Shown here: piece after piece, positions 738-16,237 of the stretch | Layout: each line of letters starts with the position of its first letter | Position numbering within the stretch: position 1 is the stretch's first letter | The notes under the pieces: model-generated | The model's database searches: none | Told to the model about the DNA's origin: nothing | The model's input: only the letters and a program-made list of their open reading frames with translations | Virus record (IMG/VR): IMGVR_UViG_3300036761_001804 | Location: 1 to 50,782 of that record | Direction: 5' to 3' (one strand) | Length of the DNA stretch: 50,782 nucleotides | Source: a virus | Program-made: the position numbers and the translations under genes

Positions 738-977
738 ATGAACGCTCAAGAGACAGCCGAGAAGTATCACAAGCACGTTGCTGTGCTGACGCGCTATCAG
801 GCCGGGCGCGTAGACATGGCACAGCCTACCTACGTGTGGCACTTGTGCCTTGCTCGCGGCTACCGCCGCGACCTGACAGCGTTCGCGCTAGCAGGCGACG
901 AGGTAGCAGGCAACCTCGTGCTAGGCGCACCGCACTTCATCACGTACAGCGACGAGCAAGTCAAGAGCATGGCATGA
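738..977 (+). CDS. Small hypothetical protein, first early gene
   Basis: A 79-residue protein beginning MNAQETAEKYHKH, with GGGAG about 8 bases upstream of ATG 738. An in-frame start at 624 exists, but that extension is Arg-rich and looks non-coding. The sequence is mixed charged/hydrophobic with no signal peptide or recognised domain. Its stop overlaps the start of the next gene (ATGA at 974). As the first gene of the rightward unit it is probably expressed immediately after infection; such genes often encode host-takeover proteins, but nothing in the sequence shows that directly. Confidence 0.65.
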   Translation: MNAQETAEKYHKHVAVLTRYQAGRVDMAQPTYVWHLCLARGYRRDLTAFALAGDEVAGNLVLGAPHFITYSDEQVKSMA

Positions 978-1192
978 CCACTGCGAGAACAGGCTTGGAA
1001 CAAGGCAAGTGCTGGCAATGCGCCGAGGACAATCACGACATGTGCTGTGCGCAAGTCGGCTGGGAATGCGCCTGCAAGTGTGACGAGGAAGACTGCGGCT
1101 TGATGCCGCTAGAGGCTGACCCCGAATCGCGATCGGCGGCAGAATCGAACGCCGAGCGAGAAGGGAAGCAGTTATGGCAGACGAAATCGTAG
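974..1192 (+). CDS. Cys-rich small protein (zinc-binding type)
   Basis: 72 residues starting at ATG 974, inside the stop of the previous gene. The N-terminal half carries C13, C16, H21, C24, C25, C32, C34, C36 and C41; the tail is charged. The spacing C-x2-C-x4-H-x2-C recurs exactly in the protein at 3717-3974, so the two share a small metal-binding module. It lies directly upstream of the amidoligase gene, whose start (1174) it overlaps by 19 bases, so the two are translationally linked. It could be a metal-binding partner or the ligation substrate of the amidoligase; both are inference. Confidence 0.7.
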   Translation: MTTARTGLEQGKCWQCAEDNHDMCCAQVGWECACKCDEEDCGLMPLEADPESRSAAESNAEREGKQLWQTKS

Positions 1193-2550
1193 GCTTGCAC
1201 CACACTGGAATCGTCACAGACGATCTTGTGTTAGAGCCGACTACGCCGACGACTGGACCACTAGCAGAAGAGCGGCAGACGCCGTGTGCTGCGGGTTGCA
1301 GTGCGATGCACGACGAGGCAAGCGAGGCCGAGCAAGAGTGCTGCGGCGGTTGTGTAGAGTGCTGCGGCTGCGTCTCGTGTAGCAATTCGCGTTGCTCATG
1401 GCGTGGCACTGACGGCTACTGCTCCGGCTGTGGTACCTGCGAAGACCATTGCACGCATTGGGAATGTGAAGGCTGTTCGCGTCGCTACGGCGAAGACGAT
1501 AGCCGTTGTTCTGCCTGCGAGCAATGCACTGACCGTTGCTGTGACTGTATGTACTGCGAAGGCTGCACCGAGAATTATGCGGCTGGCTCTGCGTGGTGCC
1601 GCTCTAGCGAAGATCAGCAAAGCCACTGCGCGAATTGCTGTGAGTGTTCCAGTGGCGGCGAGTGTGGCGAACTCATGGTAGAGCGCGAGCCACACTTCTA
1701 CGAGGCTGCACAGCCTTCACAGCGCAAGACGTACAAGAGTACGCGCCTTGTTGGCCTGGAGATCGAGGTTGCCAAGGTCAGCGAGAACACAGAGTCACTC
1801 GTGCAAGCCTGCCGTACATGGCGCGCTAGCATCGTCGAAGACGGTAGCGTTGACGATGGCTTCGAGATCAACACCAGCCCCGCCGCTGGGGATTACCTGC
1901 CTGCGATGATTGCTCGCATCGGCCGTGGCCTGCGAGAGGCAGACGCACGAGTAGACCAGCGTTGCGGCTTGCACGTCCACGTAGACTGTCGAGACTTCTC
2001 GTTCTACGACATGCGAAAACTCGTGAAACTCTACACCAAGATAGAGCCTGCGTTGTTCGCGATGATGCCCGGCTCGCGCCGCCGCTCTGTCTACTGCCGC
2101 CCTTGCGGTCAGCGTTTCGTCTACGACTTGGATCACTTCAAGATTCCCAAGGACAGCAAGCGCAAACTGCTCCAGAACGTGACGGATAGCACGCCGGATG
2201 TCTCGTGGAAAACGCAACGCTCTAGCAAGGGCGGACGTTATGGCTCTCGCTACAACGCGATGAACCTGCTGTCGTGGCTCTACCGTGGGACGATCGAGTG
2301 CAGACTACACACAGGCACAGTGCAAGCGAGCAAGATGCACTGTTGGGCGTTGCTCTGGCAAGCCATCGTAGACTTTGCGTACAAGAACACAGAGCACGAG
2401 ATCAACACGCTGTACGACAGCGGCGATCTTGGCTCTGCCGAGCCACTGTTGCTCAAGATCGCGCCAAGCGACGAAGTGCGAGCCTATGTGACCAGTCGGA
2501 TCAACGAGTTTCGCAATCACGGCCCACTGTTGCCAGGGGAGAGTGACTGA
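1174..2550 (+). CDS. Putative amidoligase (GCS/glutamine-synthetase-like COOH-NH2 ligase) with Cys-rich N-terminus
   Basis: 458 residues, ATG 1174 preceded by AAGGGA. Residues about 38-164 hold around 30 cysteines in repeated C-x2-C and CC patterns, likely several zinc or disulfide knuckles. Residues about 185-440 match the amidoligase (Amidoligase_2 type) fold: GLEIEV (194-199), EDGS (222-225), CGLHVHVD (264-271), RYNAMN (359-364) and TIECRLHTGT (373-382), the Glu/His/Arg motifs expected to bind ATP-Mg and the carboxylate substrate. Members of this superfamily form ATP-dependent amide bonds, producing peptide conjugates. The next gene is a class II glutamine amidotransferase, a partner known for some phage amidoligases, which could supply ammonia or process a glutamine side chain. 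The substrate is unknown. The Cys-rich fusion is the unusual part. Confidence 0.8.
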   Translation: MADEIVGLHHTGIVTDDLVLEPTTPTTGPLAEERQTPCAAGCSAMHDEASEAEQECCGGCVECCGCVSCSNSRCSWRGTDGYCSGCGTCEDHCTHWECEGCSRRYGEDDSRCSACEQCTDRCCDCMYCEGCTENYAAGSAWCRSSEDQQSHCANCCECSSGGECGELMVEREPHFYEAAQPSQRKTYKSTRLVGLEIEVAKVSENTESLVQACRTWRASIVEDGSVDDGFEINTSPAAGDYLPAMIARIGRGLREADARVDQRCGLHVHVDCRDFSFYDMRKLVKLYTKIEPALFAMMPGSRRRSVYCRPCGQRFVYDLDHFKIPKDSKRKLLQNVTDSTPDVSWKTQRSSKGGRYGSRYNAMNLLSWLYRGTIECRLHTGTVQASKMHCWALLWQAIVDFAYKNTEHEINTLYDSGDLGSAEPLLLKIAPSDEVRAYVTSRINEFRNHGPLLPGESD

Positions 2551-2551
2551 C

Positions 2552-3484
2552 ATGTGCGGTATCTTCGGTTGGCAACTAGAGAAGCGTATGACCGATGGTC
2601 AGGCGCATGCTCTAGCAACCTCGCTCATGCTGTTTAACGAGAAGCGCGGTGAGCATTCATGGGGCTATGCGGATAGCGCAGGCGTCACGCGCAAGGGCAT
2701 CGGCGCTCTCACACAGCATGTGACCGCGCAAGACCTTGCGGCGTATGCGTGCGTCATGGTCCACACACGCCACAAGACCCACGGCGCGATCACGGTCGAG
2801 AATGCGCACCCCTATACCATCGGGCACATCACCGGCGCGCACAACGGCTGCTTGTGGAACGCCGACGAGTTGAACCAGATCAACGACCGCAAGTTTGCAG
2901 TAGACTCCATGCACATTTTCGCGCACATCAACGAAGGTCTTGCCTTGGCGGACCTCGTAGGGTACGGCGCGATCGAGTACGTGGATGCTCGCATACCAGG
3001 CCCTGTGTTCCTCGGCACGTTTGGGACTGGTGAACTCGCCGTAGCGCGTCTCAAGGGCGTTGGCACAGTCTGGAGCAGCGAGCGTGATGCGCTGAAGACG
3101 GCCATTGCCATCTCGAATAGCAAGATCGAGAAGATGTACAAGATTAAGGCGCAGCATCTCTATGCGCTACGCGGCGGCAGACTCACTGACACGGGCTTTG
3201 CGCTGGACGTGAGCGACTGGTACGACGACCGCAAGACGGTCGATGTACCTGCGGGCCTCGATGACTTCGGCGACGAGTCTATGCGCCGCTACAACGCAGA
3301 ACTCGCAGCCGATGAGCGGCACTACAGCACAGACACACAGAGCCTCGCGGACTACTACCGCGAGCAGGAACAAGCGTTGCATCCCGAGCGTGTGCGCCTT
3401 GTCGAAGACGTGAGCGCACGCAAGGGCGGGAGCAGGACATTCTACCTGGAGGAGGCCCGGCAGACTGCCGGATTCAAACCATGA
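2552..3484 (+). CDS. Class II glutamine amidotransferase
   Basis: 310 residues. ATG 2552 was chosen over GTG 2543 because it places the catalytic Cys at position 2 (MCGIFG), as required for the N-terminal nucleophile family after Met removal. Further motifs: RGEHSWG (family RGxDSxG), HTRHKTHG and NAHPY (HTRxATHG...NAHP), HNG, and DSMHI where the family has TDSE. These build the glutaminase pocket that hydrolyses glutamine to glutamate and ammonia. Residues after about 200 are a charged extension without a recognised synthetase domain, so an acceptor enzyme must act in trans. The overlapping upstream amidoligase gene (stop at 2550) is the obvious partner. Confidence 0.88.
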   Translation: MCGIFGWQLEKRMTDGQAHALATSLMLFNEKRGEHSWGYADSAGVTRKGIGALTQHVTAQDLAAYACVMVHTRHKTHGAITVENAHPYTIGHITGAHNGCLWNADELNQINDRKFAVDSMHIFAHINEGLALADLVGYGAIEYVDARIPGPVFLGTFGTGELAVARLKGVGTVWSSERDALKTAIAISNSKIEKMYKIKAQHLYALRGGRLTDTGFALDVSDWYDDRKTVDVPAGLDDFGDESMRRYNAELAADERHYSTDTQSLADYYREQEQALHPERVRLVEDVSARKGGSRTFYLEEARQTAGFKP

Positions 3485-3720
3485 AGAACGAAGATCTCGC
3501 ATCTATCCAACGTGCGCTGTACGACTCCATGCAGACGTTCGACGCACAAGGCGATCACCTGAGCGCACAGCAATGCGACACAGCGCTCACTGCGCTAGCG
3601 CGCATCGCAGGCGAGCAAGAGTTGCTCTTGCAGACCATCGGTGACTTGCAGCAGTACAGGCCACTGTGGATCGCATGCAGGGAAGAACTCGACAGGCTGC
3701 GGCTCGGACGTGACCTATGA
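3481..3720 (+). CDS. Small helical hypothetical protein
   Basis: 79 residues, ATG 3481 overlapping the amidotransferase stop (ATGA). Predominantly helical and Leu/Gln/Glu-rich (about residues 5-75), plausibly a short coiled coil; a single Cys and no signal peptide. It is translationally coupled between the amidotransferase and a Cys-rich protein, so it is probably part of the same functional group, but no family is recognised. Confidence 0.7.
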   Translation: MKNEDLASIQRALYDSMQTFDAQGDHLSAQQCDTALTALARIAGEQELLLQTIGDLQQYRPLWIACREELDRLRLGRDL

Positions 3721-3974
3721 GCAGACAAGACGACGACCTGACCGCAGGCGATCTCATGCAGCGTGACTGCGACTGTTGGGTAGAGCACACAGTCGGCGCG
3801 ACGACGTTCGCCTCGTGTCTGTGTTCCTGCCATGCGCCGCTCTTGCAACGCATGGGCGACGTGATGCAACCGTGGGCGATGCGCTACGTGTGCCTCGCTT
3901 GCGTCGAGCAAGAGCACAGCGAATGCCAAGGGATGGCCTGCGAGTGCAGACGGTGCGCCTACGATGATAACTAG
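3717..3974 (+). CDS. Cys-rich small protein (zinc-binding type), related to 974-1192
   Basis: 85 residues, ATG 3717 in an ATGA overlap. Two Cys clusters: C18, C20, C34, C36, C38, H39, and C59, C62, H67, C70, C75, C77, C80. The second has the same C-x2-C-x4-H-x2-C spacing as the 974-1192 protein, so the two genes around the amidoligase/amidotransferase pair encode related metal-binding modules. Function unknown; possible roles are metal-dependent scaffolds, inhibitors, or acceptors for the ligase. Confidence 0.7.
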   Translation: MSRQDDDLTAGDLMQRDCDCWVEHTVGATTFASCLCSCHAPLLQRMGDVMQPWAMRYVCLACVEQEHSECQGMACECRRCAYDDN

Positions 3975-4149
3975 ACATCGCCGCTGCGAAGTCTGCGGCG
4001 AGCCTGTTGGCAAGAAGGTGCGCCTTGAGAAGGGTGGCCCTGGCATGTGCCACGGTTGCTACTTCGACGCGAAGCGTGACGCCGCGACGCGGCCTACAAT
4101 CAGCATACCCTTACTGGAGGTTGACATTGCGCAAGATGGCGAAGACTAG
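3964..4149 (+). CDS. Zinc-finger-type small protein
   Basis: 61 residues starting ATG 3964, overlapping the previous gene by 11 bases. Two C-x2-C pairs (C8/C11 and C29/C32) separated by about 17 residues form a treble-clef or zinc-ribbon-like knuckle, followed by a short acidic tail. Basic residues between the pairs could contact nucleic acid. No specific family is recognised. Confidence 0.65.
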   Translation: MITRHRRCEVCGEPVGKKVRLEKGGPGMCHGCYFDAKRDAATRPTISIPLLEVDIAQDGED

Positions 4150-4519
4150 AGGCGCGATCACTGCCGCAGAGATGCAGGAAGTGTTGCGCAAGAAGGCAGA
4201 ATACTTGACCCTAGAAGAAGTGCAAGCGCTGCTCACGAGGGATGGCGGAACGAAGACGCAGCCAGAAAGTGGTCAGTCGGTGAATGACTGTGCTCTAGAC
4301 GAGCGAATAGCCGACGATGCAGGTTCGAATCCTGCTCCCTCGACTCACCCGTGCAAGCGTTGCACCCGCGACATCGACTCACGCTACCCGTTCCGGGTCT
4401 GCGTGCGCTGCTCGCTCGACATGCTCGAAGAGACGTTGAACGAGCAAGGGTACCACGAGGCCCGCCGCAAGGCAGCCTACGAACGCCTGGCCGCAGCCGG
4501 GCTCCTCAAGGAGAAGTGA
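4127..4519 (+). CDS. Zinc-ribbon protein containing a tRNA-like segment
   Basis: 130 residues from TTG 4127, which has GGAGG (4116-4120) at ideal spacing; ATG 4136 is the in-frame alternative (127 residues) but lies too far from that site. Residues about 1-36 are helical; the C-terminal part has CKRC...CVRC (a zinc ribbon) followed by a charged helix. Between them, 36 codons coincide with a tRNA-like element at 4236-4343, whose translation (including GSNPAP) is typical of a translated tRNA T arm. The element may be an in-frame insertion or an overlapping RNA gene. Confidence 0.65.
   Translation: MRKMAKTRGAITAAEMQEVLRKKAEYLTLEEVQALLTRDGGTKTQPESGQSVNDCALDERIADDAGSNPAPSTHPCKRCTRDIDSRYPFRVCVRCSLDMLEETLNEQGYHEARRKAAYERLAAAGLLKEK
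4236..4343 (+). other. tRNA-like element (non-canonical or degenerate tRNA)
   Basis: CGAGGGA at 4236-4242 pairs perfectly with TCCCTCG at 4336-4342 as a 7-bp acceptor stem. Immediately 5' of the latter is a perfect T arm: GCAGG, loop TTCGAAT, CCTGC (4319-4335). After the 5' acceptor strand come TG and GCGGAA...AGACGC, resembling the D arm of class II (Leu/Ser) tRNAs but lacking the GG of the D loop. Between the arms are CAGTC-GGTGAAT-GACTG (4274-4290; loop triplet TGA but no U33) and GCTC-TAGAC-GAGC (4292-4304). At 108 nt it is too long for a standard tRNA and has no encoded CCA. It may be a tRNA remnant or a tRNA mimic. Confidence 0.35.
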
Positions 4520-4520
4520 C

Positions 4521-4685
4521 ATGGAACTCACCCAAGACGAGTTGTTGCAACGATTGCGTGACATCGCGATCGAGTTGTTCGACAACGTGCGCACGCGCGA
4601 AGCGGGGCGCTTCGTACTCGGCAACGAGATCGCCAAGATCAACGAACTCTGCTTGCGCATCTCGCGCTATGGCGTGACGCGCTAG
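4521..4685 (+). CDS. Small helical hypothetical protein
   Basis: 54 residues, MELTQDELLQ..., with AAGGAG nine bases upstream of ATG 4521. It is one amphipathic helical unit rich in Leu/Arg/Glu/Asp with a single Cys. One base separates it from the preceding stop. No recognised family; it could be a small regulator or part of a complex. Confidence 0.6.
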   Translation: MELTQDELLQRLRDIAIELFDNVRTREAGRFVLGNEIAKINELCLRISRYGVTR

Positions 4686-4698
4686 GGAAAGGAGGACC

Positions 4699-4857
4699 AT
4701 GACCACACGACGAAGTTTCACTGGTCGCAAGACCGTTCGACGCGCGCAAGCGCAAGAGCGGACGCATGAGCGCAGCCTGCGCTCGAACGCACAGCAACTT
4801 GCTGTGCTCGATACCCGGCCGGGCGAGAGCAAACGTGAACGCGCGAGACTCGCGTGA
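4699..4857 (+). CDS. Small basic hypothetical protein
   Basis: 52 residues with a near-perfect AAAGGAGG six bases before ATG 4699, one of the strongest ribosome-binding sites in the early arm. The N-terminal half is very basic (Arg-rich) and the C-terminal half reads like the short conserved phage pattern AVLDTRPGESKRERARL. Strong translation plus basic charge suggest an abundant nucleic-acid-binding or host-interacting protein; this is inference. Confidence 0.6.
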   Translation: MTTRRSFTGRKTVRRAQAQERTHERSLRSNAQQLAVLDTRPGESKRERARLA

Positions 4858-4955
4858 TTCACGACCCGTACTCTGCGCCAACGCTCGGGATCTGTCTGTT
4901 CCTCGTGGGCATCTTTGCTCTACACTTCGCGGTCCTCGCGTGGATACTTCTGTGA
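4854..4955 (+). CDS. Putative 33-residue single-span membrane protein
   Basis: GTG 4854 overlaps the previous stop (GTGA). After a short polar start, about 22 consecutive hydrophobic residues (LGICLFLVGIFALHFAVLAW) form one transmembrane helix that ends almost at the C-terminus. Such tiny membrane proteins in phage early regions can act in superinfection exclusion or membrane takeover, but there is no direct evidence here. Short length keeps confidence moderate. Confidence 0.45.
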   Translation: MIHDPYSAPTLGICLFLVGIFALHFAVLAWILL

Positions 4956-5068
4956 CACGCGCGGGCCGCGTCGCCGCCCGATCGTGCGCGGTTGCACGAC
5001 GAGAAGGGCAGCAATTTCGCGCACTTGCGTTGGCACGCCGGATGCAACTGGTGGCCACATGCGGCTGA
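4952..5068 (+). CDS. Putative 38-residue basic protein
   Basis: GTG 4952 overlaps the previous stop in a GTGA junction, the coupling used through this operon. The product is Ala/Arg-rich with two Cys and no domain. It is supported mainly by position and overlap geometry (the next gene starts at 5059 inside it), so it could be a chance frame in GC-rich DNA. Confidence 0.35.
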   Translation: MTRAGRVAARSCAVARREGQQFRALALARRMQLVATCG

Positions 5069-5259
5069 TTCGCGGCGACCGGGACCGAAGCGAGCACCCT
5101 TGTCAGGTGTGCTTTCGTGAACCTGCTACGCATCAGTATCGTTCTCGCGTATTCGAGGTCGGTACGAGTTGCATCTACAGGTTTCGTATTCACAAGAACG
5201 ATCTAGACGAGATCAAGCACGAGATCAGCCAGGTGCATCTGCTATGCTCAGATGCGTGA
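5059..5259 (+). CDS. Small Cys-containing hypothetical protein
   Basis: 66 residues from ATG 5059, overlapping the preceding frame by 10 bases. It contains HPCQVC (C15/C18), and later C39 and C62, so one metal site could form. The C-terminal half is an acidic/basic helix. No recognised family. It belongs to the series of small zinc-type proteins between the amidotransferase and the recombination genes. Confidence 0.55.
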   Translation: MRLIRGDRDRSEHPCQVCFREPATHQYRSRVFEVGTSCIYRFRIHKNDLDEIKHEISQVHLLCSDA

Positions 5260-5408
5260 ACCCTCGCTGTCGCTGGCTCTACGCGCCATGGCAAGGCGCG
5301 TGTCCTAAGTGCTCAGATACTCGCAAGTTCGACACAGCGTTGCGCGACCTAACGCAGCGCCGGAAGAGGAAGAAGGGAGCCAGTGAGTATGTACGACCCT
5401 TGCTGTGA
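5244..5408 (+). CDS. Zinc-ribbon small protein
   Basis: 54 residues, ATG 5244 overlapping the upstream gene. The Cys pattern C4-x4-C9 then CPKC (C20/C23) is a compact zinc ribbon, followed by a strongly basic stretch (RRKRKK), as expected for a nucleic-acid-binding protein. It could bind RNA polymerase or DNA, but no family is recognised. Confidence 0.55.
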   Translation: MLRCVNPRCRWLYAPWQGACPKCSDTRKFDTALRDLTQRRKRKKGASEYVRPLL

Positions 5409-5658
5409 CCTGGAAGTGTTCAGTACCCGACGCGGGCGCGTGTTCATGCGCTGCAAGTTGATCCTCGGCGTGCTGTGCATCGTCCCGGTCTTCCTGCTCA
5501 CGTACCTTCCGTGGCGTATCGTCCAGGGCATCAAGCATGCCACGTCACCGGGACAAGCCCCGGTTGTCACGGTTCGCTCGGAACTGCGCGCGTTCGGTCG
5601 CTTCTTTCGCGACTGGCCCCACGCGTTCCGTACTGGAACACGGTTGAGGGGTGTGTGA
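5389..5658 (+). CDS. Single-span membrane protein
   Basis: 89 residues from ATG 5389 (GGGAG about 9 bases upstream); GTG 5383 is possible. Residues about 24-45 (LILGVLCIVPVFLLTYLPW) form a transmembrane helix, with a basic cytoplasmic-type tail rich in Arg. CC at positions 5-6 precedes the membrane. No family recognised. Early membrane proteins of this type may modify the envelope or block superinfection. Confidence 0.6.
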   Translation: MYDPCCDLEVFSTRRGRVFMRCKLILGVLCIVPVFLLTYLPWRIVQGIKHATSPGQAPVVTVRSELRAFGRFFRDWPHAFRTGTRLRGV

Positions 5659-5882
5659 AGTATCTCGGGACATACCGGCGCAAGCGCCGGCTCTACGCAG
5701 AGCCCTGGTTCAGTGCCTTCACGGCTAGGCGTCGCGCGTGCTATGTGCGCTTCGGCTGCTTCGTCATCAGGCTCGGGGCATTGCCTCAGGCTCCCACTTC
5801 TGGCTCCATCTCCGGGCGTTATCTTGGCTGGGGTCCAGGCAACCTCTCGGAACGGCGGAAGACGCTAGCCGAGTTCATATAG
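5655..5882 (+). CDS. Hypothetical basic protein
   Basis: 75 residues from GTG 5655, overlapping the previous stop (GTGA). It is Arg/aromatic-rich in the first half (KYLGTYRRKRRLYAEPW) and Gly/Ser-rich afterwards, with two Cys. No domain recognised. Start choice rests on overlap coupling. Confidence 0.5.
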   Translation: MKYLGTYRRKRRLYAEPWFSAFTARRRACYVRFGCFVIRLGALPQAPTSGSISGRYLGWGPGNLSERRKTLAEFI

Positions 5883-5895
5883 AAAGGGAGGTAGC

Positions 5896-6126
5896 ATGTT
5901 CGTACACGCACAGACATTTCCCCCGGTGCGGAAGCCATTCGAGCCGGTGGAAGTGAAGATCACGTTCGACACAGAAGAGGAGTTCCTGGCCTTCCATGCG
6001 CTCATGAAGACCAACCTCTCCGTGCCAATGGCAGTGTCGCGGTGCTACGACGTGACCGCGGATGCGGTGCGGAACGTCATCGACCGGATCGAGGCCCAGA
6101 TCGGCCCGATCGCGCGAGGCGAGTGA
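5896..6126 (+). CDS. Small hypothetical protein
   Basis: 76 residues, ATG 5896 with AAAGGGAGG upstream. It has a beta-then-helix composition (VEVKITFDTEEEFLAFHALM) ending in a helix; the EVKITFDTEEEF pattern is common in small phage alpha/beta proteins. Its stop overlaps the next start (TGATG). Function unknown. Confidence 0.7.
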   Translation: MFVHAQTFPPVRKPFEPVEVKITFDTEEEFLAFHALMKTNLSVPMAVSRCYDVTADAVRNVIDRIEAQIGPIARGE

Positions 6127-6443
6127 TGGCCAAGGTCTATAGCAAAGAGTGGATGGAGAAGGTGATGGCCATGACCACGGAAGAGCGTATCACGCTCGCA
6201 GACAAGGACATCCATGCTCCCGAGGGCATCGTAGCCGTGGCTAGCGCATGCGCGGAGTTGATCTCCCTCGACGACAAGAACGTGACCATGCGCGTGCTCG
6301 GCAGTCTGCTGGGAATGGTCACGGCACTCGGGGCTTCCCCATTCCAGACGTTCACGTATCTCCTGCACGACCCGGTTCTTCGTAAGCATCTCGGTGAATC
6401 GGCTGTGCTGAACACGCCCGTCCCTGGCGAGAAGGGCAACTAA
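6126..6443 (+). CDS. Hypothetical helical protein
   Basis: 105 residues from ATG 6126 in a TGATG overlap. Acidic helical N-terminus, then a moderately hydrophobic segment (VLGSLLGMVTALGASPF) not long or apolar enough to be a sure membrane span. No recognised family. Co-transcribed with the recombination genes downstream. Confidence 0.65.
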   Translation: MAKVYSKEWMEKVMAMTTEERITLADKDIHAPEGIVAVASACAELISLDDKNVTMRVLGSLLGMVTALGASPFQTFTYLLHDPVLRKHLGESAVLNTPVPGEKGN

Positions 6444-6444
6444 T

Positions 6445-6588
6445 ATGACGGAACTTCAAGCACTGCGGCGGTTCAAGAACGTGGTAGTACGAAAGTACGC
6501 TCTCACAACGCAGTGTCCACCGATCCAGAAGTGCGTCGTGTGTGATGCGTTGCGCCTCGTGAAGGCTGCAACGAAGAAAGGTAAGTGA
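6445..6588 (+). CDS. Small basic protein with C-x-C-x(n) motif
   Basis: 47 residues, ATG 6445 one base after the previous stop. Basic, with C24, C30 and C33 (QCPPIQKCVVC), a possible minimal metal knuckle. It directly precedes the Sak4-like ATPase gene. No family recognised. Confidence 0.5.
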   Translation: MTELQALRRFKNVVVRKYALTTQCPPIQKCVVCDALRLVKAATKKGK

Positions 6589-6590
6589 GT

Positions 6591-7589
6591 ATGGACTTCA
6601 AACCGGCTACGCGTTCCCAAAGCAAACTCCACATGTCCATCGAGGCCGTAGCCGGGGCTGGGAAGTCCAAGACTGGCCTCGGGATACTTCGGGGACTTGT
6701 TGGCCCCGAGGGCCGCATCGCGGCGGTAGACACGGAGCATGGCCGTCTCCAACTCGGCTACGCTGGTGTCTATCCCGGGACCGTCCAACCCACGGGGTTC
6801 GATGTCATCGAACTCGTGGACTTCGGCGTGGAGTTTTACATCGAGGCTATCCAGGCCGCCGTGCGTGGACGCTACGACGGCTTGTTCGTGGACTCGGTGA
6901 GCCACGCGTGGGCAGGGAAGGGCGGCATCCTCGAACGCATGGACGCGTTCAAGGGTGGTGGGCAGAACACGTTCAGTGACGGTTGGGGGAAGTACGGCAC
7001 CCCGGCGCAGAACAGGTTCGTGGATGCTCTCTTGAGCAGCAACATGCACGTCATCGTGACGATCCGTAAGAAGGTCGAATACGTCATGAAACCCGATGCC
7101 ACTGGAAAGATCGAGGTCGTCAAGATGGGCCTCAAGCCGATCCAGCGCGAGGGGTTTGATTACGAGTTCGACCTGATCGCTCACATGGACCGCGACCATA
7201 CGATGACCTTCAGCAAGGTCAGCGGCGCGTTCGACGATCTCGACGGCGCGATCATCCCGAGGCCCGAGCCAGTGAAGTTCGGCGAGAGCCTCTTGGCTCG
7301 CATCAAGGCCATGGGCGCGGAATGGAAGCCCCCGGAGTTCGCTCGCACGTTCAAGGTCGGGGCAAAGTTGGTCACGACCAAGGGCGTGACGTTCGAGACG
7401 TACACCGAGGCGTTGAACCTTGGCGTCCAGTACGACAAGGTGACGCAGAAGGGCGCGGCGCGTGAGGCCATGTCCACGCGCTTCAAGGCGGCCAGCGTGA
7501 CTGACCTCACCGAGGCTCAGGCCCTGGCTTTCATCGCAGAGATGGAGAAGGTCATCGCCGAGCCTCCACCGAAGGGAGATCCCAAGTGA
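6591..7589 (+). CDS. Sak4-like RecA-fold ATPase (phage recombinase/annealing ATPase)
   Basis: 332 residues from ATG 6591; GTG 6585 is also in frame. Walker A is AVAGAGKSKTG near residue 20, and a Walker B-like GLFVDSVSHAW follows near residue 105; between them is DTEHGR, typical of phage AAA_24/Sak4-type nucleotide-binding proteins. The C-terminal part lacks a helicase domain. Sak4 proteins promote annealing or strand exchange together with an SSB and are frequently encoded near a RecB/Cas4-like nuclease, as here (7992-8948). Cytoplasmic; expected role in recombination-dependent replication or repair. Confidence 0.82.
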   Translation: MDFKPATRSQSKLHMSIEAVAGAGKSKTGLGILRGLVGPEGRIAAVDTEHGRLQLGYAGVYPGTVQPTGFDVIELVDFGVEFYIEAIQAAVRGRYDGLFVDSVSHAWAGKGGILERMDAFKGGGQNTFSDGWGKYGTPAQNRFVDALLSSNMHVIVTIRKKVEYVMKPDATGKIEVVKMGLKPIQREGFDYEFDLIAHMDRDHTMTFSKVSGAFDDLDGAIIPRPEPVKFGESLLARIKAMGAEWKPPEFARTFKVGAKLVTTKGVTFETYTEALNLGVQYDKVTQKGAAREAMSTRFKAASVTDLTEAQALAFIAEMEKVIAEPPPKGDPK

Positions 7590-7810
7590 CGAAGATGGAC
7601 AGGTTCGTACTCTGGGCCACCATCACAGGAGTTGCGGCGTGTCTCGCCGCGCTCCTTCACGGTTGTATGAGCAACGAGCAGTTTGATACTTGGCAGCGTG
7701 AGAATAATGAACGATGCGCGGCAATGTGCGCGCAGTACCCATCGTACGCGGTGTTGGAACTCAGGTGCAACTGCCCGCAAGCCACAGCGTCCCCAGTGGG
7801 GCTACTATGA
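7586..7810 (+). CDS. Putative exported lipoprotein or membrane-anchored small protein
   Basis: 74 residues from GTG 7586 (GAAGGGAG upstream), overlapping the ATPase stop. A hydrophobic N-terminal segment (FVLWATITGVAACLAALL) is followed by HGC, giving LLHGC, a borderline lipobox; if used, the mature protein would be a lipoprotein starting at that Cys. The mature part has four more Cys. It sits among replication genes, so a lysis role is unlikely; envelope-directed superinfection exclusion is a possibility. Confidence 0.55.
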   Translation: MTKMDRFVLWATITGVAACLAALLHGCMSNEQFDTWQRENNERCAAMCAQYPSYAVLELRCNCPQATASPVGLL

Positions 7811-8001
7811 TCATCATCTGGATTTTCCATCTCCCCGAGGACCAGGTAGACCTGGATCTCGCGATGGCGTCGCGGAATAACCAGAACGCTCTAGACTCCA
7901 TCGCGGAAGTATTCCGGCGACACCGGAAGTACGAAGGCCCCGCGATGACGGAAGAACTGTTCTACGAGATCTTGTCCGACGAGGAAGCCTCATGCAGTTG
8001 A
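7807..8001 (+). CDS. Small hypothetical protein
   Basis: 64 residues from ATG 7807 in an ATGA overlap. It opens with a short hydrophobic strand (MIIIWIFHL), then a charged helical remainder. It overlaps the nuclease start (7992) by 10 bases, so it may be a translational partner. No family recognised. Confidence 0.6.
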   Translation: MIIIWIFHLPEDQVDLDLAMASRNNQNALDSIAEVFRRHRKYEGPAMTEELFYEILSDEEASCS

Positions 8002-8948
8002 CCAACAATCTGCGGCTCCCTGACGCCCTCGTGGCTCTGTTCGCCGAAGACGACTACACACGCGGGGATGCCGACTACAGTGTAACCGGCCTGCTGTCGC
8101 CCCCGCGTGTGCTCCAGTTGAAGCAGCGCCATGACGAGGAGTTGACTGAAGATGTCGTGGATCGCATCCCTTCGCAGTTGGGTACGCTCCTGCACAAGGC
8201 TGCCCACGAAAGCGCAAAGCGACTGGCGCACGATGGTGTACTCGCCGAAGAACGATTTTACGTTGCTCGTCGAGTGGCTAACGGGGCAGAAGTACGAATC
8301 AGCGGTCAGATGGACCATATCCTCGTGGATGAAACGTCGGAAGAACTGACGGACTACAAGTTCCCGAGTGTGTCGTCCTTGCAGATCAAGTTGACCCGGC
8401 CCGGGGCACTCATGGAATGGACCGAGCAAGTGAACCTCTACGCGCTGATCCTGCGCGAGAACTACATTCCGGTGCGCACAGCCCGGATCATCGCCACGGG
8501 GTTGGGATGGACGGCCGGGATGGCAGCGCGTGGCACGCATCCACCAACCCAGACGGTTGCCATCCCGATCGACCTGTGGCCTGTGGAACAGCAAGAGGCG
8601 TTCCTGATGTCCAGGCTGGAAGCGCACGCGGCAGCCGCCGCGCTCGCAGACGAGGATCTCCCACTTTGCACGCCTGCGGAGCGATGGGTAGCCCCAACCA
8701 AGTACGCAGTCATGAAGCCCGGGCGCAAGAGCGCCGTGCGCGTGACCGAGTTCAAGGCCGAGGCAGAGATGCTGCTATCCGAGAACGAAGGATGGTGGCT
8801 GGATGAGCGCATTGGGGGTAGCCGTCGATGTACCCTATGGTGCGCAGTCGGGAGGGCTGGCCTGTGCAACCAGTGGAATGCAGAGCAGGCCGCTGCGCGC
8901 ATCGCCGGTACTCCTGACTCTAACCTAGAAGAGGAGGCTCTATCGTGA
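7992..8948 (+). CDS. Cas4/RecB-like PD-(D/E)XK nuclease
   Basis: 318 residues, ATG 7992. Nuclease motifs appear in order: GTLLHKAAHE (64-73), GQMDHIL with D108, TDYKF (D121, K123) as the D/E-x-K, and the helix EWTEQVNLYA with Q146 and Y150. The C-terminal third has a lone Cys (LCTP) and then C-x3-C-x7-C, compatible with a Cas4/AddB-like Fe-S cluster. Such enzymes resect DNA ends to produce single strands for annealing; the upstream Sak4-like ATPase fits a two-component recombination module. Confidence 0.85.
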   Translation: MQLTNNLRLPDALVALFAEDDYTRGDADYSVTGLLSPPRVLQLKQRHDEELTEDVVDRIPSQLGTLLHKAAHESAKRLAHDGVLAEERFYVARRVANGAEVRISGQMDHILVDETSEELTDYKFPSVSSLQIKLTRPGALMEWTEQVNLYALILRENYIPVRTARIIATGLGWTAGMAARGTHPPTQTVAIPIDLWPVEQQEAFLMSRLEAHAAAAALADEDLPLCTPAERWVAPTKYAVMKPGRKSAVRVTEFKAEAEMLLSENEGWWLDERIGGSRRCTLWCAVGRAGLCNQWNAEQAAARIAGTPDSNLEEEALS

Positions 8949-8980
8949 GTGAAACATAGCAAGAAGAGCGTGACGAAGCG

Positions 8981-9259
8981 ATGGAGTCTGTCGCGACGCA
9001 TGCGGAGCGAGTTGTACCGAACTTCGCAGTGAGTGCTGCGGAGTTCATTGTCGAACATCTTCGGTTGAACGGTTCTATGACCAGCGAGGAACTGACAGAC
9101 AACTGCAAGATGGCCGGGATCGTGCCGCACGACGATCGCGCTTTCGGCCCTGTCTTCTACGCGTTGCGGCGCAAGCAACTGATTCACAAGATCGGGACTG
9201 CACTTCGTACCAAAGGCCACGGCACTACAGGCGGTAACGTCTGGGCGTTGGTGGCCTGA
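8981..9259 (+). CDS. Winged-helix-like DNA-binding protein
   Basis: 92 residues from ATG 8981; the ribosome-binding site is weak (AAGAAGAG). The pattern of a helix (AAEFIVEHLRL), a second (SEELTDNCKMAG), and a recognition-type helix (FGPVFYALRRKQLIHKIG) followed by a Gly-rich wing and terminal strand (VWALVA) is that of a winged helix. The 11529-11810 protein has the same architecture, suggesting paralogues. A role in transcriptional control or origin binding is inferred. Confidence 0.65.
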   Translation: MESVATHAERVVPNFAVSAAEFIVEHLRLNGSMTSEELTDNCKMAGIVPHDDRAFGPVFYALRRKQLIHKIGTALRTKGHGTTGGNVWALVA

Positions 9260-9312
9260 GTTCCACCGCTACATGCGTTGCTCGCGTGTGTAGCCAATAC
9301 CAAGGAGAAAAC

Positions 9313-10026
9313 ATGGCACCAGAGACGCAGGAAGCCCTCGACGACGATTCCAGCCTAGACGGTGGGTTGAACGACGAGGGTGACACGGCAGGCGAGTTCA
9401 CCGAGGCAGCGGCAGACGCCGCCGCAGCGGAGTTCGCCGCCTACGAGAAGGCTGGCCGCGTCGATGACGTGGACAAGCAGCGCGAGTTGATCACCGAGGG
9501 CACCACGGTTCAACTCGGCTTCGTCAGTGCCGAACTGGCGATGGGCGGCAAGGTCCAGGCTGGCAAGGAGTACATCTACGGCAAGTTCCAGGTGAACAAG
9601 CCGGACATGTACGCAGACGGGGAGCGCGACTTCGGGATCTACTTCCGCCTGACCGCCAAGGCGAGCGATCCGCAGAAGCCGAACTCTACGGCGTTCAATG
9701 TGACGCAGAGTCAACTGCGTCGCATCGCGGCAGCGATCTGGGGCGTGGAAGTCACGAGCCCGGCAGTCGTCGCGCTGATCGAGCCCGCCCTGAAGGCGGC
9801 AGCGGAGCAGGGCAGCAATCCCACGGAGCGCCGTGCAGCGTTCTTCGTGGCCCTGACCAAGTTGATCAACGAGGAGTTGGTCGGCAAGACGTTCACCACG
9901 GACATCGGGGTTCGCCCGGCGCGCGTGTGGAACGGCAAGAAGTACCGTGAGACGCAGGACATCGGGAAGCCGCACTACCCGGGTCGCAAGGAGCAGAAGT
10001 CTGCGCTCAAGCCGGTCACGGCCTAA
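9313..10026 (+). CDS. Hypothetical replication/recombination-associated protein (possible SSB-like)
   Basis: 237 residues from ATG 9313 with AAGGAG upstream. The first about 60 residues are very acidic and Ala-rich. The middle has beta-type segments (EYIYGKFQVNKP, RDFGIYFRLTAKA) and the end is basic. The position next to the Sak4-like ATPase and nuclease is where phages often encode a single-stranded DNA-binding protein, but the SSB fold is not proven and the acidic tail is N-terminal rather than C-terminal as in most SSBs. Confidence 0.6.
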   Translation: MAPETQEALDDDSSLDGGLNDEGDTAGEFTEAAADAAAAEFAAYEKAGRVDDVDKQRELITEGTTVQLGFVSAELAMGGKVQAGKEYIYGKFQVNKPDMYADGERDFGIYFRLTAKASDPQKPNSTAFNVTQSQLRRIAAAIWGVEVTSPAVVALIEPALKAAAEQGSNPTERRAAFFVALTKLINEELVGKTFTTDIGVRPARVWNGKKYRETQDIGKPHYPGRKEQKSALKPVTA

Positions 10027-10027
10027 C

Positions 10028-10222
10028 ATGGCCGCCGTTCTCCAGCGGTGCATCAACTGCACCGTCGAATATGATGCGAGCACAGACCAGTTCCACAACT
10101 TCGGTCTGTGTCTCGCCCGGGTGCGTCGGGGACCGTTGCCAAAGGGCGACGGTTCCCCGCCGTCTGTTCCACCCCCGGCTGGCTCGGACTTCCCAGATCC
10201 CGAGAGTCCGACAGTTCACTAG
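10028..10222 (+). CDS. Small protein with N-terminal C-x2-C and Pro-rich tail
   Basis: 64 residues, ATG 10028 one base after the previous stop. RCINC near the N-terminus plus a later Cys (LCLAR) could make a small metal knuckle; residues after about 38 are Pro/Gly/Ser-rich and disordered. No family recognised. Confidence 0.5.
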   Translation: MAAVLQRCINCTVEYDASTDQFHNFGLCLARVRRGPLPKGDGSPPSVPPPAGSDFPDPESPTVH

Positions 10223-10234
10223 AAGGGAGGTTCC

Positions 10235-10621
10235 GTGAAGAAGTATTGGCCCGCGCTTGCGATCCTCGCGTTGCTGCTCCTGGGTACGGTCCAGGCAGCG
10301 AACGCGGCAAGCGTGAAGATCTGTTACGACGATGCCTCGGTATCCCCCGGGGTCACGTCGATCAACGTGCTCTACCATCCGACCACGGGGTCGGATGTCA
10401 CCACGGCTGATGTACTCGCAGGTTCCGTGCTCACGGGCTCGGTGCGCTGTGCGACGCAGCCGATCCCCGCGCTCCTGGTGCGCGGGACCACGTATGCAGT
10501 GACGCTCAAAGCCACCAACGCCTTCGCGGAGGTAGGGCCTGCGTCGAACGCAGTGACGTTTCTTCCGCCAAATCTGCCAGCCGTCATCACAGGTGTGTCG
10601 GTACAGATTGTCGTTCCGTGA
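10235..10621 (+). CDS. Exported fibronectin-III-like protein
   Basis: 128 residues from GTG 10235 with AAGGGAGG upstream. There is a clear Sec signal peptide: MKKYWPALAILALLLLGTVQ with cleavage likely after ANA near residue 24. The mature part is about 100 residues of beta-rich sequence with YAVTLKATNAFAEVGPASNAV, the classic end of an FnIII domain. Two Cys could form a disulfide. An exported single FnIII domain in the early, replication-gene cluster is unusual; an envelope or adhesion role, or interference with other phages, is possible. Confidence 0.75.
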   Translation: MKKYWPALAILALLLLGTVQAANAASVKICYDDASVSPGVTSINVLYHPTTGSDVTTADVLAGSVLTGSVRCATQPIPALLVRGTTYAVTLKATNAFAEVGPASNAVTFLPPNLPAVITGVSVQIVVP

Positions 10622-10657
10622 TTTCCTGCACCGAAGGGTAGACGTGACGGTACATCC

Positions 10658-11539
10658 ATGACCAAACATCCCAACCTCGTAGCGTGGCGCAAAGCCCACG
10701 GCAGCCTCTGCCATGTGTGTCCGTTGAACGGGCAACGCTGCGCAGGTTCGGATGGTCCAGTTGAGGCTGAGCACATTGGCGTAGGAGACTTCCCAAGTCA
10801 GGACGATGTAGACGACGGCGTGACGCGCGGCCAGACCCACGGACGCGCCTTCAGCGACGGTGTTGGGTACTACATGAAACTGGAGAACCTTGTACCCGAG
10901 GGCCTTGCGACGCTCGTCCATGTCCCAGGCCGGAAGTGGCCCCGCGTCGTGCTCAGCAATACGTTCTTGATGAACCTGATCATGTGTCACATTCCCGGGA
11001 AGAAGAAGCCCCAGGTCAAGATTCGTTCCACCGTAGGTCGGCACGCCATCCTGTGCTGCGCCAATTCGTACCGCGCCGTGATGCGCCGGATCTACAAGGA
11101 CAACCCGCGTCGAACGCTGACAACGATGGGCACCGCAGCCACCAGTACAACCCTTCGTATGCCAGCCGCGATCGAGGCGTTCCGTGGCCGCATCCCTGCC
11201 CCGTGGGTGGATGCAGACATCGAGCGCCTCTTCGCGCCGATCCCTGAAGAGCAGATCTACAAGGTGGTACTCCGAGGAAAGCATCCCAAGGAGCCGTGGT
11301 GGCCAGCCATGGAATGGTTCTTGGCCGAGATCTTGAAGTTGCAGCGCGCGGGTGTGCGCAAGGTAGCGAAGTGCGGGCTCACGCCGCCACGAGAGTTCAC
11401 AGCGACGTATGAGCATATCCGCATCGACACTGGCGAACACTACATTACCAACCATGCCGTGGTCCTAGATCTTCTACTGCGGCGCCAAAGACAAGCGCTC
11501 ACGAAGCGCACGAAAAGGGAGAAGCAGGATGGAAACTAG
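10658..11539 (+). CDS. Diverged uracil-DNA glycosylase superfamily protein (family 4-like fold)
   Basis: 293 residues from ATG 10658. The Fe-S pattern of family 4 UDGs is visible: CHVCPL (C18, C21), C110 in NLIMCHIPGKKKP (family NVVKCRPPGNRKP) and C133/C134. GVGDFPSQDD (41-50) takes the place of the catalytic GEAPG motif, followed by GRAFSDGVGYYM for the family G-PF-G--G motif. I see no terminal HPS/HPA motif. The active-site changes suggest altered or lost glycosylase activity, perhaps a structural partner of the nearby DNA polymerase or a protein that guards modified DNA. The about 100-residue C-terminal extension is unassigned. Confidence 0.7.
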   Translation: MTKHPNLVAWRKAHGSLCHVCPLNGQRCAGSDGPVEAEHIGVGDFPSQDDVDDGVTRGQTHGRAFSDGVGYYMKLENLVPEGLATLVHVPGRKWPRVVLSNTFLMNLIMCHIPGKKKPQVKIRSTVGRHAILCCANSYRAVMRRIYKDNPRRTLTTMGTAATSTTLRMPAAIEAFRGRIPAPWVDADIERLFAPIPEEQIYKVVLRGKHPKEPWWPAMEWFLAEILKLQRAGVRKVAKCGLTPPREFTATYEHIRIDTGEHYITNHAVVLDLLLRRQRQALTKRTKREKQDGN

Positions 11540-11810
11540 TATTGCAGAACAAGTTAACGACCTAACGCGGGTAACTGCTCGCATCGGGGCATTCGTAGAA
11601 CGCTTTGTTCTTGCGCGTCTTCGTGAGCAACGGACATTTACAGCCCACGAACTGCGTAGATTCGTGATGCTCTGTGAGCCTGGGATTGCCCCGGCATCGC
11701 CCGATCGAGTCTTGCGCGCCCTGCGGCAGGCCCGGCGCATAAATTATGTCGTGACGAATCGCCGGGCATCGGAGTACAAACCGCTGGAAATCGACAGCGC
11801 GCAGTTCTAG
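11529..11810 (+). CDS. Winged-helix-like DNA-binding protein, paralogue-like of 8981-9259
   Basis: 93 residues, ATG 11529 with GGGAGAAG upstream, overlapping the previous gene by 11 bases. A long first helix, then TAHELRRFV, GIAPASPDRVLRALRQARRI and a wing (NYVVTNRRASEYK) give a winged-helix layout like the 8981-9259 protein. Placed just before the polymerase block, it may be a regulator or replication accessory factor. Confidence 0.65.
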   Translation: METSIAEQVNDLTRVTARIGAFVERFVLARLREQRTFTAHELRRFVMLCEPGIAPASPDRVLRALRQARRINYVVTNRRASEYKPLEIDSAQF

Positions 11811-11818
11811 GGGAGTCT

Positions 11819-12346
11819 ATGACAGACGAAGACAAGATGGCGAGGGCAGCCCTCGATGCGCCGCCGATGGAATTGCCAGAGAGCCAGCAAGATCCCGTGG
11901 ATGAGAATGGTGAGGTGATCGACACCACATCACCTCCAGTTGCTGACGCAATCCTCGAAAGCGAGAAGTCCACAGCTTGGACTGATGCACAACGCGATGC
12001 CCATGTCAAGATTGCCGAAGGCATCGAAGCCGAGGGCAAGGGCGGCCCGGGCTCGGAGATCACCGGGCTCGAACTCGATCCCGGCCGCGAACTAACCCCC
12101 GAGGAACGCAAGGCTCTCCCTCCCTGGGCCGAGCAACTACGCCCGGGACGCGGCGTAGCCATCGACGGCTGGGTCACACGCATTGTGCTGATCGACCCCG
12201 CGCGTAGTATGCTGCTCCTGTTTGTCGAGGGACCAAGCCAGGGCACGACGAAGAAAGTCAAGGCCGCGATGAAGAAGCACGCGACGAAGAAGGGCAGCAA
12301 CAAGACCCCGAAGGGTGGAGCCCGGACCCGTGCGCGATCTAAGTAA
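11819..12346 (+). CDS. Hypothetical protein with acidic N-terminus and Lys-rich tail
   Basis: 175 residues, ATG 11819 preceded by GGGGAG. The first half is acidic and disordered, a central segment (GVAIDGWVTRIVLIDPARSMLLLFV) forms a small beta unit, and the last 40 residues are Lys/Thr/Arg-rich, suggesting DNA binding. Directly upstream of the polymerase cluster; no recognised family. Confidence 0.65.
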   Translation: MTDEDKMARAALDAPPMELPESQQDPVDENGEVIDTTSPPVADAILESEKSTAWTDAQRDAHVKIAEGIEAEGKGGPGSEITGLELDPGRELTPEERKALPPWAEQLRPGRGVAIDGWVTRIVLIDPARSMLLLFVEGPSQGTTKKVKAAMKKHATKKGSNKTPKGGARTRARSK

Positions 12347-12605
12347 CGCCGAACTGGAGTGCATGTCGCACAATGATCTGTGCGAACGCGTGCGCGATCT
12401 CCAGCATCAACGCCTGATCTGGGCCAAAGCCACGGAAGGCACCGAGCGCAGGAACGTGAAACTCGTAGACGTTGCAGCGCAGGCGGTCGGACTCAACAGG
12501 GCGGTGTTTGCTCGGGCGCACGCGGAACTCCAGGCCATCCAGGCTCGGGCCGACGAAGTGATCCGCGAACTCAAGACGGTGATCGAGGAGACGGGGGGCA
12601 AGTGA
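12330..12605 (+). CDS. Coiled-coil hypothetical protein
   Basis: 91 residues from GTG 12330 (GGTGGAG about nine bases upstream); GTG 12315 is an alternative. It is almost entirely helical with heptad-like spacing of Leu/Ile/Val and charged residues from about residue 15 to 88. It overlaps the previous gene by 17 bases and the polymerase start by 4. Possibly a polymerase accessory protein; inference from position. Confidence 0.6.
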   Translation: MRDLSNAELECMSHNDLCERVRDLQHQRLIWAKATEGTERRNVKLVDVAAQAVGLNRAVFARAHAELQAIQARADEVIRELKTVIEETGGK

Positions 12606-14719: not shown

Positions 14720-14943
14720 AGCAACGTCTTGACTCCCCGCTTCGCGAGTATCGTGGTCGCGAGCACCGCAAGATCCGTGTCTACATCAAGCGTTACCTGG
14801 GCCGGGCCAACCGTTGGGAAACCGGCTTCAAGGGAGTCCTCATTCACGAAATGTACACCATGGGTCTGGACTTCATCGAAGAGATCAACTCCATGCTTTG
14901 GTCGCCTCGCCGACCCCGGACGTACCGCCGCCGTGCCAAATGA
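14716..14943 (+). CDS. Small basic protein between polymerase and helicase
   Basis: 75 residues, ATG 14716 in an ATGA overlap with the polymerase stop. Strongly basic, Arg-rich at both ends (REYRGREHRKIRVYIKRY; RRPRTYRRRAK) with a central helix. Likely nucleic-acid-binding, perhaps a replisome accessory; no family recognised. Confidence 0.65.
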   Translation: MKQRLDSPLREYRGREHRKIRVYIKRYLGRANRWETGFKGVLIHEMYTMGLDFIEEINSMLWSPRRPRTYRRRAK

Positions 14944-15983
14944 GCCGAGTCATACTCGACGTACCACACGAGGAGTTGATCACTCGTGTTCCTCCACCTT
15001 GGCTCTTGGAGGGCGTGGCTCCGGTGAACGGGATCATGCTCGTCCATGGGAAGTCTGGAGCCGGGAAGTCGTACATTTGCCTCGACATCGCCCTGTGTCT
15101 CGCTACCGGGAAAGCCTGGCATGGACACAAGGTCAAGCAAGGCCCGGTATTGTATCTGTCGGCGGAAGGACAGGATGGCTTGTCGAGCCGCGTGAGGGCG
15201 TGGATGGCGAAGAACGATCTCCCGCCTGGTCCACTCCCCATGTTCCACGTCTTGGAGACGGTCGATCCCCTGGATCGCGAGGCCATGTGGGCGCTCGGCA
15301 ACCTGATCACGAAGCGAAAGCCCATCGCCGTGTTCTCGGACACCTGGGGCGCGCACATGGGCGGCGGCGGCGGGGACGTGAATGCCCCGAAGGACACGGG
15401 GCAGGCCGTGGCCGCGTGGCGCAAGTTGATCGACACGCATCGCTTCAGCGCATGGCTGATCCATCACCAGGGTCACAAGGAAAGCGAGCGCGCTTTGGGC
15501 AGTGGTGCTCTGAAGAACGCCGCAGAGAACGAGATCTCTATCGTTCAAGACAAGGCTGGGATCGTCACCGTGACGAACTTGAAGCGCCGCGACAAGGGTG
15601 GCTTTGACGAGATGCAGTTCATCAAGGAAGTGATCGACCTGGGGATAGATGCGAACGGGGATAAGGACGAGGCACTGGTGTTCGTCCTGGCTACGACCCC
15701 GCACCCTGAGTCCGACCCGGAGTCCACGACGGATACGAGCCAGAAAGCCTTGCTTGCGCTCTCGTCAACCATCATCGCGAACGGTACGATCTCCGGGGAA
15801 GAGAAAGGGTTGACGTACTCGGCCTGGCGTGACGCCACGCCGCTCCTCGGGGCCGCCTTCAGTCGCACGCGTGATGCGTTGGTCGCGGCAGGGCTCGTCA
15901 AGAAGCACGGCACAGGACGCGGGGCCACGTATATGCCCGCCACGCCTGCGACCGACGAGACAGTGTGGAAGGGACCAGAGTGA
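14940..15983 (+). CDS. RepA-like hexameric replicative helicase (AAA_25, RecA fold)
   Basis: 347 residues, ATG 14940 in an ATGA overlap. Walker A HGKSGAGKS (36-44), LYLSAEGQ motif, Walker B IAVFSD (D134), then LIHHQGHKESERALGSGALKN (about 173-192), the hallmark of RSF1010 RepA-type ATPases. The C-terminal 80 residues (SQKALLALSSTI...FSRTRDALVAAGLVKKHG) look like a winged helix. It probably unwinds DNA for the upstream family A polymerase. No primase gene was recognised, so priming must come from an unrecognised or host protein. Confidence 0.88.
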   Translation: MSRVILDVPHEELITRVPPPWLLEGVAPVNGIMLVHGKSGAGKSYICLDIALCLATGKAWHGHKVKQGPVLYLSAEGQDGLSSRVRAWMAKNDLPPGPLPMFHVLETVDPLDREAMWALGNLITKRKPIAVFSDTWGAHMGGGGGDVNAPKDTGQAVAAWRKLIDTHRFSAWLIHHQGHKESERALGSGALKNAAENEISIVQDKAGIVTVTNLKRRDKGGFDEMQFIKEVIDLGIDANGDKDEALVFVLATTPHPESDPESTTDTSQKALLALSSTIIANGTISGEEKGLTYSAWRDATPLLGAAFSRTRDALVAAGLVKKHGTGRGATYMPATPATDETVWKGPE

Positions 15984-16237
15984 TGCCTTACGTGATGAAG
16001 TCTGTTCGCCCGAGGATCGAGCCGCACATGGGTTCGATGGCGATGTCCAGTGGGGAGTTGAACTACCAGATCACGCGCCTGTGTGTGGGCTACCTCGACC
16101 GCCACGGGCTCCGCTACTTCACCCTCAACGACATCATCGGCGCACTGGAGTGCGCGAAGATGGAACTCTACCGGCGTGTGGCCGCTCCATACGAAGACGA
16201 GAAGATCAAAGAGAATGGAGACGTGTACGACATATGA
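15983..16237 (+). CDS. DUF6899-type conserved phage protein
   Basis: 84 residues from ATG 15983 (TGATG overlap). It shows the conserved pattern of this small phage family: PYV...RP.IEPHM, SGELNYQITRL, YLDRHG, TLNDIIGALECAKMELYRRVAAPYEDEKIKENGDVY. The function is unknown; members commonly sit in nucleotide-metabolism or replication clusters, as here. The motif is recalled from family experience and was not searched. Confidence 0.75.
   Translation: MPYVMKSVRPRIEPHMGSMAMSSGELNYQITRLCVGYLDRHGLRYFTLNDIIGALECAKMELYRRVAAPYEDEKIKENGDVYDI

Follow-up and report, generated by a model that had tools for sequence, protein, structure and literature searches.

In the present study, two adjacent genes at the beginning of the rightward half of a phage genome were found to encode an amidoligase with a Cys-rich N-terminal arm and a class II glutamine amidotransferase, and we consider it rather probable that the two proteins form one two-subunit enzyme that amidates carboxylates in a glutamine-dependent, ATP-driven manner, carries a zinc-binding arm for docking and likely acts on a peptide of the host envelope. 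The window, i.e. the whole stretch of DNA analysed, is a single phage record of 50.8 kb, and the gene order suggests a rightward half (738-18513) and a leftward half carrying the terminase, portal-sized and capsid genes. The placement of the pair as an early, first block is likewise inferred from gene order, and a search for sigma-70 promoters found no site. The basis in hand for a two-gene enzyme comprises the identity of the proteins, the predicted fold, intact catalytic residues, conserved adjacency and a conserved Cys array. On its gene content, the window appears to hold a stripped-down version of a known phage cassette, reduced to two enzymes.

First, the gene at 1174-2550 (plus strand, 458 aa) encodes an Amidoligase_2 protein (COOH-NH2 ligase) with its catalytic domain at approximately residues 185-450. 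The protein matched Pfam PF12224 Amidoligase_2 (E 2.6e-20; 73.8 bits against a curated cut-off of 22) and three amidoligase PHROGs, including the one named "amidoligase enzyme" (E 4.7e-23). All invariant residues of a 44-member alignment are retained (E196, E198, S225, E231, G265, H267, H269, N364, G372, E375, R377 and W391), and the E-x-E, D-x-S, H-x-H and N...G-T-x-E-x-R residues of the family are present. The AlphaFold model was confident across most of residues 185-450 (domain pLDDT mostly above 90), and the modelled domain resembled YbdK (Foldseek E 4.5e-5, Z 12.4), glutamine synthetases (Z of approximately 11-12; 4bax at Z 12.4, rmsd 3.2 over 174 residues), a plant GCL (Z 11.3) and the Pup enzyme Dop (Z 10.8); a sequence search of solved structures with the ligase profile matched none. 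The predicted structure of the ligase domain is that of the glutamine synthetase/YbdK (GS/GCS-like) fold. These family matches and the intact invariant residues bear out the original prediction of an ATP-dependent COOH-NH2 ligase, with the ATP-driven chemistry being predicted, and the modelled fold agrees with this assignment.

Second, the gene at 2552-3484 (plus strand, 310 aa) encodes a class II glutamine amidotransferase (N-terminal-Cys glutaminase), as had also been proposed, with matches to GATase_6 (PF13522; E 2.9e-6, just over the cut-off) and phrog_4736 (E 6.4e-21) and with the catalytic residues intact. C2, R73, N98-G99 and D118 are conserved, and R73, N98-G99 and D118 are invariant in six diverse members. 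The nearest curated models were GlmS and PurF, matched in the glutaminase part only, and an assignment as full-length GlmS or PurF was rejected at 33.6 and 29.2 bits against equivalog cut-offs of 381 and 350, respectively. The nucleophile Cys must directly follow the initiator Met, and therefore the likely start is the ATG at 2552, which gives MCGIFGW with Cys at position 2, as in most relatives; translation from the GTG at 2543, the start given in the ORF list, would leave this residue inside the chain. In some clades, the C-terminus of the amidotransferase also carries several C-x2-C pairs. The ligase stop codon (2548-2550) lies one base ahead of this ATG, with GGGGAGAG upstream, and the translational coupling claimed earlier is therefore plausible.

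Herein, we propose a mechanism for the pair. Class II amidotransferases free ammonia from glutamine and deliver it to the site of a partner, and ligases of the GS/GCS fold convert a carboxylate to its activated acyl phosphate; therefore, the minimal pair would most simply be a glutamine-dependent amidating enzyme. The N-terminal Cys of the amidotransferase would split glutamine and pass ammonia to the ligase. At the GS/YbdK-type site of the latter, a carboxylate would be activated to an acyl phosphate at the expense of ATP, and reaction with the ammonia would then give an amide. The Cys-rich arm of the ligase may bind several zinc ions and dock either the amidotransferase or the substrate. The most likely substrate would be a carboxylate on a peptide from the host envelope (a peptidoglycan precursor), or else a host protein, and the change in the envelope might take place early in infection. 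The host cell wall as the target is a hypothesis taken from the literature on larger cassettes, whose other members were not found among the early ORFs scanned in the window. A ligase that amidates a carboxylate with a glutamine-splitting partner is also found in MurT-GatD and AsnB-type enzymes, but MurT has a Mur-ligase fold and GatD is a class I glutaminase; these proteins are unrelated to the pair and serve as an analogy only.

Third, the N-terminal array of the ligase (1284-1680, plus strand) consists of C-x2-C-x(2-5)-C-C-x-C-x2-C-x2-C repeats, and 30 Cys were counted within the first ~180 residues, in agreement with the approximately 30 extra cysteines originally noted, whereas Cys makes up 1.1% genome-wide. 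The closest ligase (37% identity over the domain, E 2e-50) was found on a contig of an Elusimicrobia MAG (JAGWUP010000007.1, L106) and has 31 N-terminal Cys in the same register: both proteins carry Cys at 24 of the 33 Cys-bearing N-terminal columns, compared with 14 identities at 115 columns elsewhere, and both show repeats of this type. In this contig, an amidotransferase with 35% identity to that of the window adjoins the ligase; however, the contig comes from a bacterial MAG bin and the small neighbours are unlike those of the window. A simple codon-usage gene caller placed the ligase start at 1675, downstream of the arm, but the shared Cys register counters the view that the arm is an artefact of an over-long ORF. 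Cys-rich N-termini were also observed in the ligases of Caudoviricetes sp. ctUh1700 from Manatee Spring (MW202637, L002; 18 Cys) and of the IMG/VR loci L010 (33 Cys) and L040 (28 Cys). Both ctUh1700 and L010 combine this N-terminus with the amidoligase and the amidotransferase, and no further cassette genes are present in the part examined, as in the window; they differ in their longer N-termini and show identities of approximately 27% for the ligase and 34-35% for the amidotransferase. Among ligases linked to an amidotransferase, Cys-rich arms are seen repeatedly, in several lineages.

The arm of the window ligase probably binds zinc, a reading based on spacing and conservation because the array was modelled by AlphaFold at low confidence. 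A Pfam scan of this arm gave no domain match, and the VIA/Foldseek match lists for the ligase were dominated by the catalytic domain and, given the low confidence of the arm, were uninformative on zinc folds. A RING-like spacing (C-x2-C...C-x-H-x2-C-x2-C...C-x2-C) can be read in the window, ctUh1700 and L010, with no Pfam match and low pLDDT; the RING finger is not our main reading, given that the same stretch in the Elusimicrobia contig is an ordinary Cys repeat. In a sister clade, the arm has 8 invariant Cys, a sub-threshold LIM match (E 1.8e-4) and a model with a pLDDT of ~80-88, which gave Foldseek matches to PINCH1 LIM4-5; the predicted structure of the arm in that clade is LIM-like. Among the non-redundant ligases from loci retrieved with the ligase alone, an adjacent amidotransferase was observed for 21 of 21 Cys-armed and 2 of 29 unarmed ligases (Fisher test, p 4e-12, kinship ignored). 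This value is set aside as proof because few independent changes are seen on the ligase-domain tree, in which the arm needs at most 4 changes, with starred branches giving 2 independent pairs (p = 1 in a sign test), and therefore shared descent could explain the association. In known cassettes, amidotransferases also accompany unarmed ligases.

The arm makes a protein the foremost alternative target to the envelope. The ligase might form a peptide or isopeptide bond to the amine of an amino acid or of a protein, like PafA for Pup, with the zinc arm recruiting a host protein and the amidotransferase trimming or supplying a glutamate-derived group, and we regard this as possible although unlikely. 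The GS/GCS-fold ligases include the Pup enzymes, with PafA among the matches of the sister-clade model in addition to the match of Dop to the window ligase; LIM-like and other zinc arrays frequently bind proteins; and the bigger phage cassettes also encode peptide ligases of the ATP-grasp type and cyclotransferases. However, known class II amidotransferases deliver ammonia, and the nearest relative phage has no conserved small protein substrate alongside the pair. A broader and more speculative idea, to which we give little weight, is that phages repeatedly furnished a glutamine-fed GS-like amidoligase with multi-zinc arms (LIM-like or Cys-repeat) that select a protein partner, which would yield targeted protein-amidating or -conjugating effectors distinct from the cell-wall cassettes. 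Production of a small diffusible metabolite, e.g. a gamma-glutamyl amide, instead of a modified macromolecule appears improbable: YbdK and GmaS, which have the closest folds among solved structures, are gamma-glutamyl ligases that act on small molecules, but the ~180-residue Cys-rich arm suggests a macromolecular partner. Amidation of a carboxylated nucleotide or DNA base, shielding phage DNA from restriction, seems very improbable despite the amidotransferase domains known in phage 7-deazaguanine pathways (Gat-QueC) and a dATP/dGTP diphosphohydrolase-like gene at 16673-17077 of the window, as the early ORFs scanned contain no deazaguanine, hydroxymethylase, base-kinase or PurZ gene.

The pair is known in kind. 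The ligase and amidotransferase genes are adjacent in ctUh1700, Alcaligenes phage QDWS535 and Arthrobacter phages, and near-adjacent in Pseudomonas phage UFV-P2, with an HNH gene in between; in most IMG/VR loci retrieved with the amidotransferase, the ligase gene likewise adjoins it, and the pair was also observed in unassigned aquatic phages. An amidoligase and an amidotransferase are included in the published phage "peptidoglycan modification" cassette (PMC5498523), in the cassette of LUZ24-like phages (PMC3890496, PMC3517423) and in that of OM43 phages, where they form part of a peptidoglycan-modification cassette (PMC10580990), and the bigger versions have been interpreted as serving peptidoglycan modification (PMC5498523; PMC10580990). 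Since many unrelated phages carry the pair and published cassettes include it, the suggestion that it represents an undescribed system could not be upheld. The LUZ24, phiEco32 and RIO-1-type cassettes (PMC5498523; PMC3890496; L003, L005, L018, L019 and L027) share with the window an Amidoligase_2 gene beside or near a class II amidotransferase, the same catalytic residues and a position in the early/replication half of the genome. In contrast to the window, which has the pair only, these full cassettes add an ATP-grasp protein, a COOH-NH2 ligase type 2 and usually a gamma-glutamyl cyclotransferase, and their ligases have no Cys-rich arm; for none of the three added enzymes was a Pfam match obtained among the early ORFs scanned in the window (some short ORFs lay outside the scan). 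In Arthrobacter phages Salgado and Ottawa, the amidoligase adjoins a glutamine amidotransferase already so named, but the ligase has no Cys arm, and in Salgado an annotated cyclotransferase lies next door. In the open literature searched, no description was found of a Cys-armed stand-alone ligase/amidotransferase form (the 2009 amidoligase survey, PMID 20023723, lies outside that scope), and this form, which occurs in several lineages and is LIM-like by prediction in one, is to that extent an undescribed variant; nor did the literature yield biochemical proof or an experiment for any phage amidoligase/amidotransferase pair. Amidoligase/amidotransferase pairs are common in phages. Because the two-gene version in the window is minimal and lacks the remaining cassette enzymes, two proteins would suffice to test its chemistry and target. 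The recurrent arm of zinc type, paired with an adjacent amidotransferase in the sampled loci, provides a handle on the choice of partner or target.

The comparison with related phages delimits the conserved unit. When used as single-sequence queries, the ligase and amidotransferase of the window gave no matches in IMG/VR, and the IMG/VR relatives were retrieved with two-member and three-member alignments. The nearest relative phage, IMGVR_UViG_3300005441_000001 (G001), is colinear with the window, with identities of 52% for the terminase, 58% for the major head protein, 49% for the polymerase and 76% for a phosphoesterase. In a separate comparison bearing on the host, the terminase and polymerase matches were all remote (~22-30% identity). 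This phage carries the pair at the same place, in the order of a homologue of 738-977, the ligase (26%), the amidotransferase (31%) and a homologue of 4699-4857. Its ligase is more distant from that of the window than is the ligase of the Elusimicrobia contig, and therefore the pair either diverged faster than the structural genes or was exchanged. The 79-aa protein at 738-977 (plus strand), with a counterpart beside the ligase in G001/L040 (35% identity over 78 aa, E 2e-13), is the sole small neighbour directly beside the pair that this relative conserves. Nothing resembling the ORFs that start at 974, 3481, 3717 or 3964 was found in the 38 kb of this phage examined.

These four ORFs all lie on the plus strand, and 974 and 3717 had been proposed to form a four-gene unit with the pair and to serve as substrates of the ligase. 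The 72-aa Cys-rich ORF at 974-1192 (C-x2-C-x4-H-x2-C) and the 85-aa Cys-rich ORF at 3717-3974 (C-x2-C-x4-H-x2-C-x4-C-x-C-x2-C) do share the identical C-x2-C-x4-H-x2-C spacing, and such a C/H pattern occurred in 0.3% of composition-preserving shuffles. However, homologues of the two were detected neither in any ligase/amidotransferase locus nor in phage records, with one partial exception: 3717 resembles, along its length (31%), an ORF of the phage contig L236, in a locus that has neither enzyme. A scan with the finger motif found it in small ORFs of other phages, with many chance matches, and no ligase or amidotransferase was present in any of the 119 loci of finger matches listed. The ORF at 3481-3720 (79 aa), which overlaps the amidotransferase stop and for which no relative was found, intervenes between the amidotransferase and 3717. 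Thus, across the relatives, the ligase and amidotransferase widely occur together, whereas the set of all four genes does not, and 974 and 3717 are bystanders not supported as members of the conserved unit. Conjugation or modification of these two small proteins by the ligase is accordingly the least probable explanation, the common finger spacing and the location in one gene run with the pair being outweighed by the lack of homologues in ligase loci or beside the pair in the colinear relative and by the occurrence of a 3717-related ORF where both enzymes are missing. The next ORF, at 3964-4149 (61 aa, with C-x2-C), had no relative and gave weak, sub-threshold LIM and rubredoxin matches. As regards the host-takeover or anti-defence role suggested earlier, which is no more than a possibility, PADLOC defence profiles, a library without counter-defence, gave no match at E 0.01. 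The ends of the record are near-identical, with 94% likeness between 7-151 and 50638-50782.

Other arrangements of the amidoligase and the class II glutamine amidotransferase were observed among the compared loci. Two amidoligases with Cys-rich arms flank a single amidotransferase in the phage locus L030 (1152-5818) and its relatives in other phages (L031, L034, L035, L037, L042, and L078), and a conserved ORF of approximately 100 amino acids is located between the amidotransferase and the second ligase. This ORF is a better candidate substrate or partner than the small Cys-rich proteins of the window (974-1192 and 3717-3974) proposed as substrates in the original prediction. In the amidoligase of L091 (3880-5067), the Cys-rich stretch is apparently inserted into the ligase domain, not placed ahead of it. 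In deltaproteobacterial contigs (L126, L138, L141, L150, L163, and L177), an amidoligase is followed approximately 1 kb downstream by a class II amidotransferase, a chromosomal arrangement related to the phage module.

Near-identical stretches were observed at both ends of the record (7-151 and 50638-50782), suggesting that the genome is complete, with a terminal repeat or circular overlap. A dATP/dGTP diphosphohydrolase-like gene (16673-17077; PF18909, 5e-26) adjoins genes of the DUF4406 and DUF6899 families. This combination is reminiscent of phages with modified nucleotides, although PurZ was not found among the early ORFs scanned in the window. The metallophosphoesterase-like gene (17074-17838) is unusually conserved, with 76% identity in the colinear relative phage, compared with 30-58% for most other genes. 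Long arrays of degenerate, 6-nt-phased repeats of the GTCGGCGT type occupy 26300-31900, and can be read on the minus strand as Thr-Pro-rich stretches; the products are probably tail-fibre-like proteins. A predicted tRNA-Ser (anticodon AGA; 4262-4344) sits inside the ORF at 4127-4519, and thus one of these two calls is doubtful.
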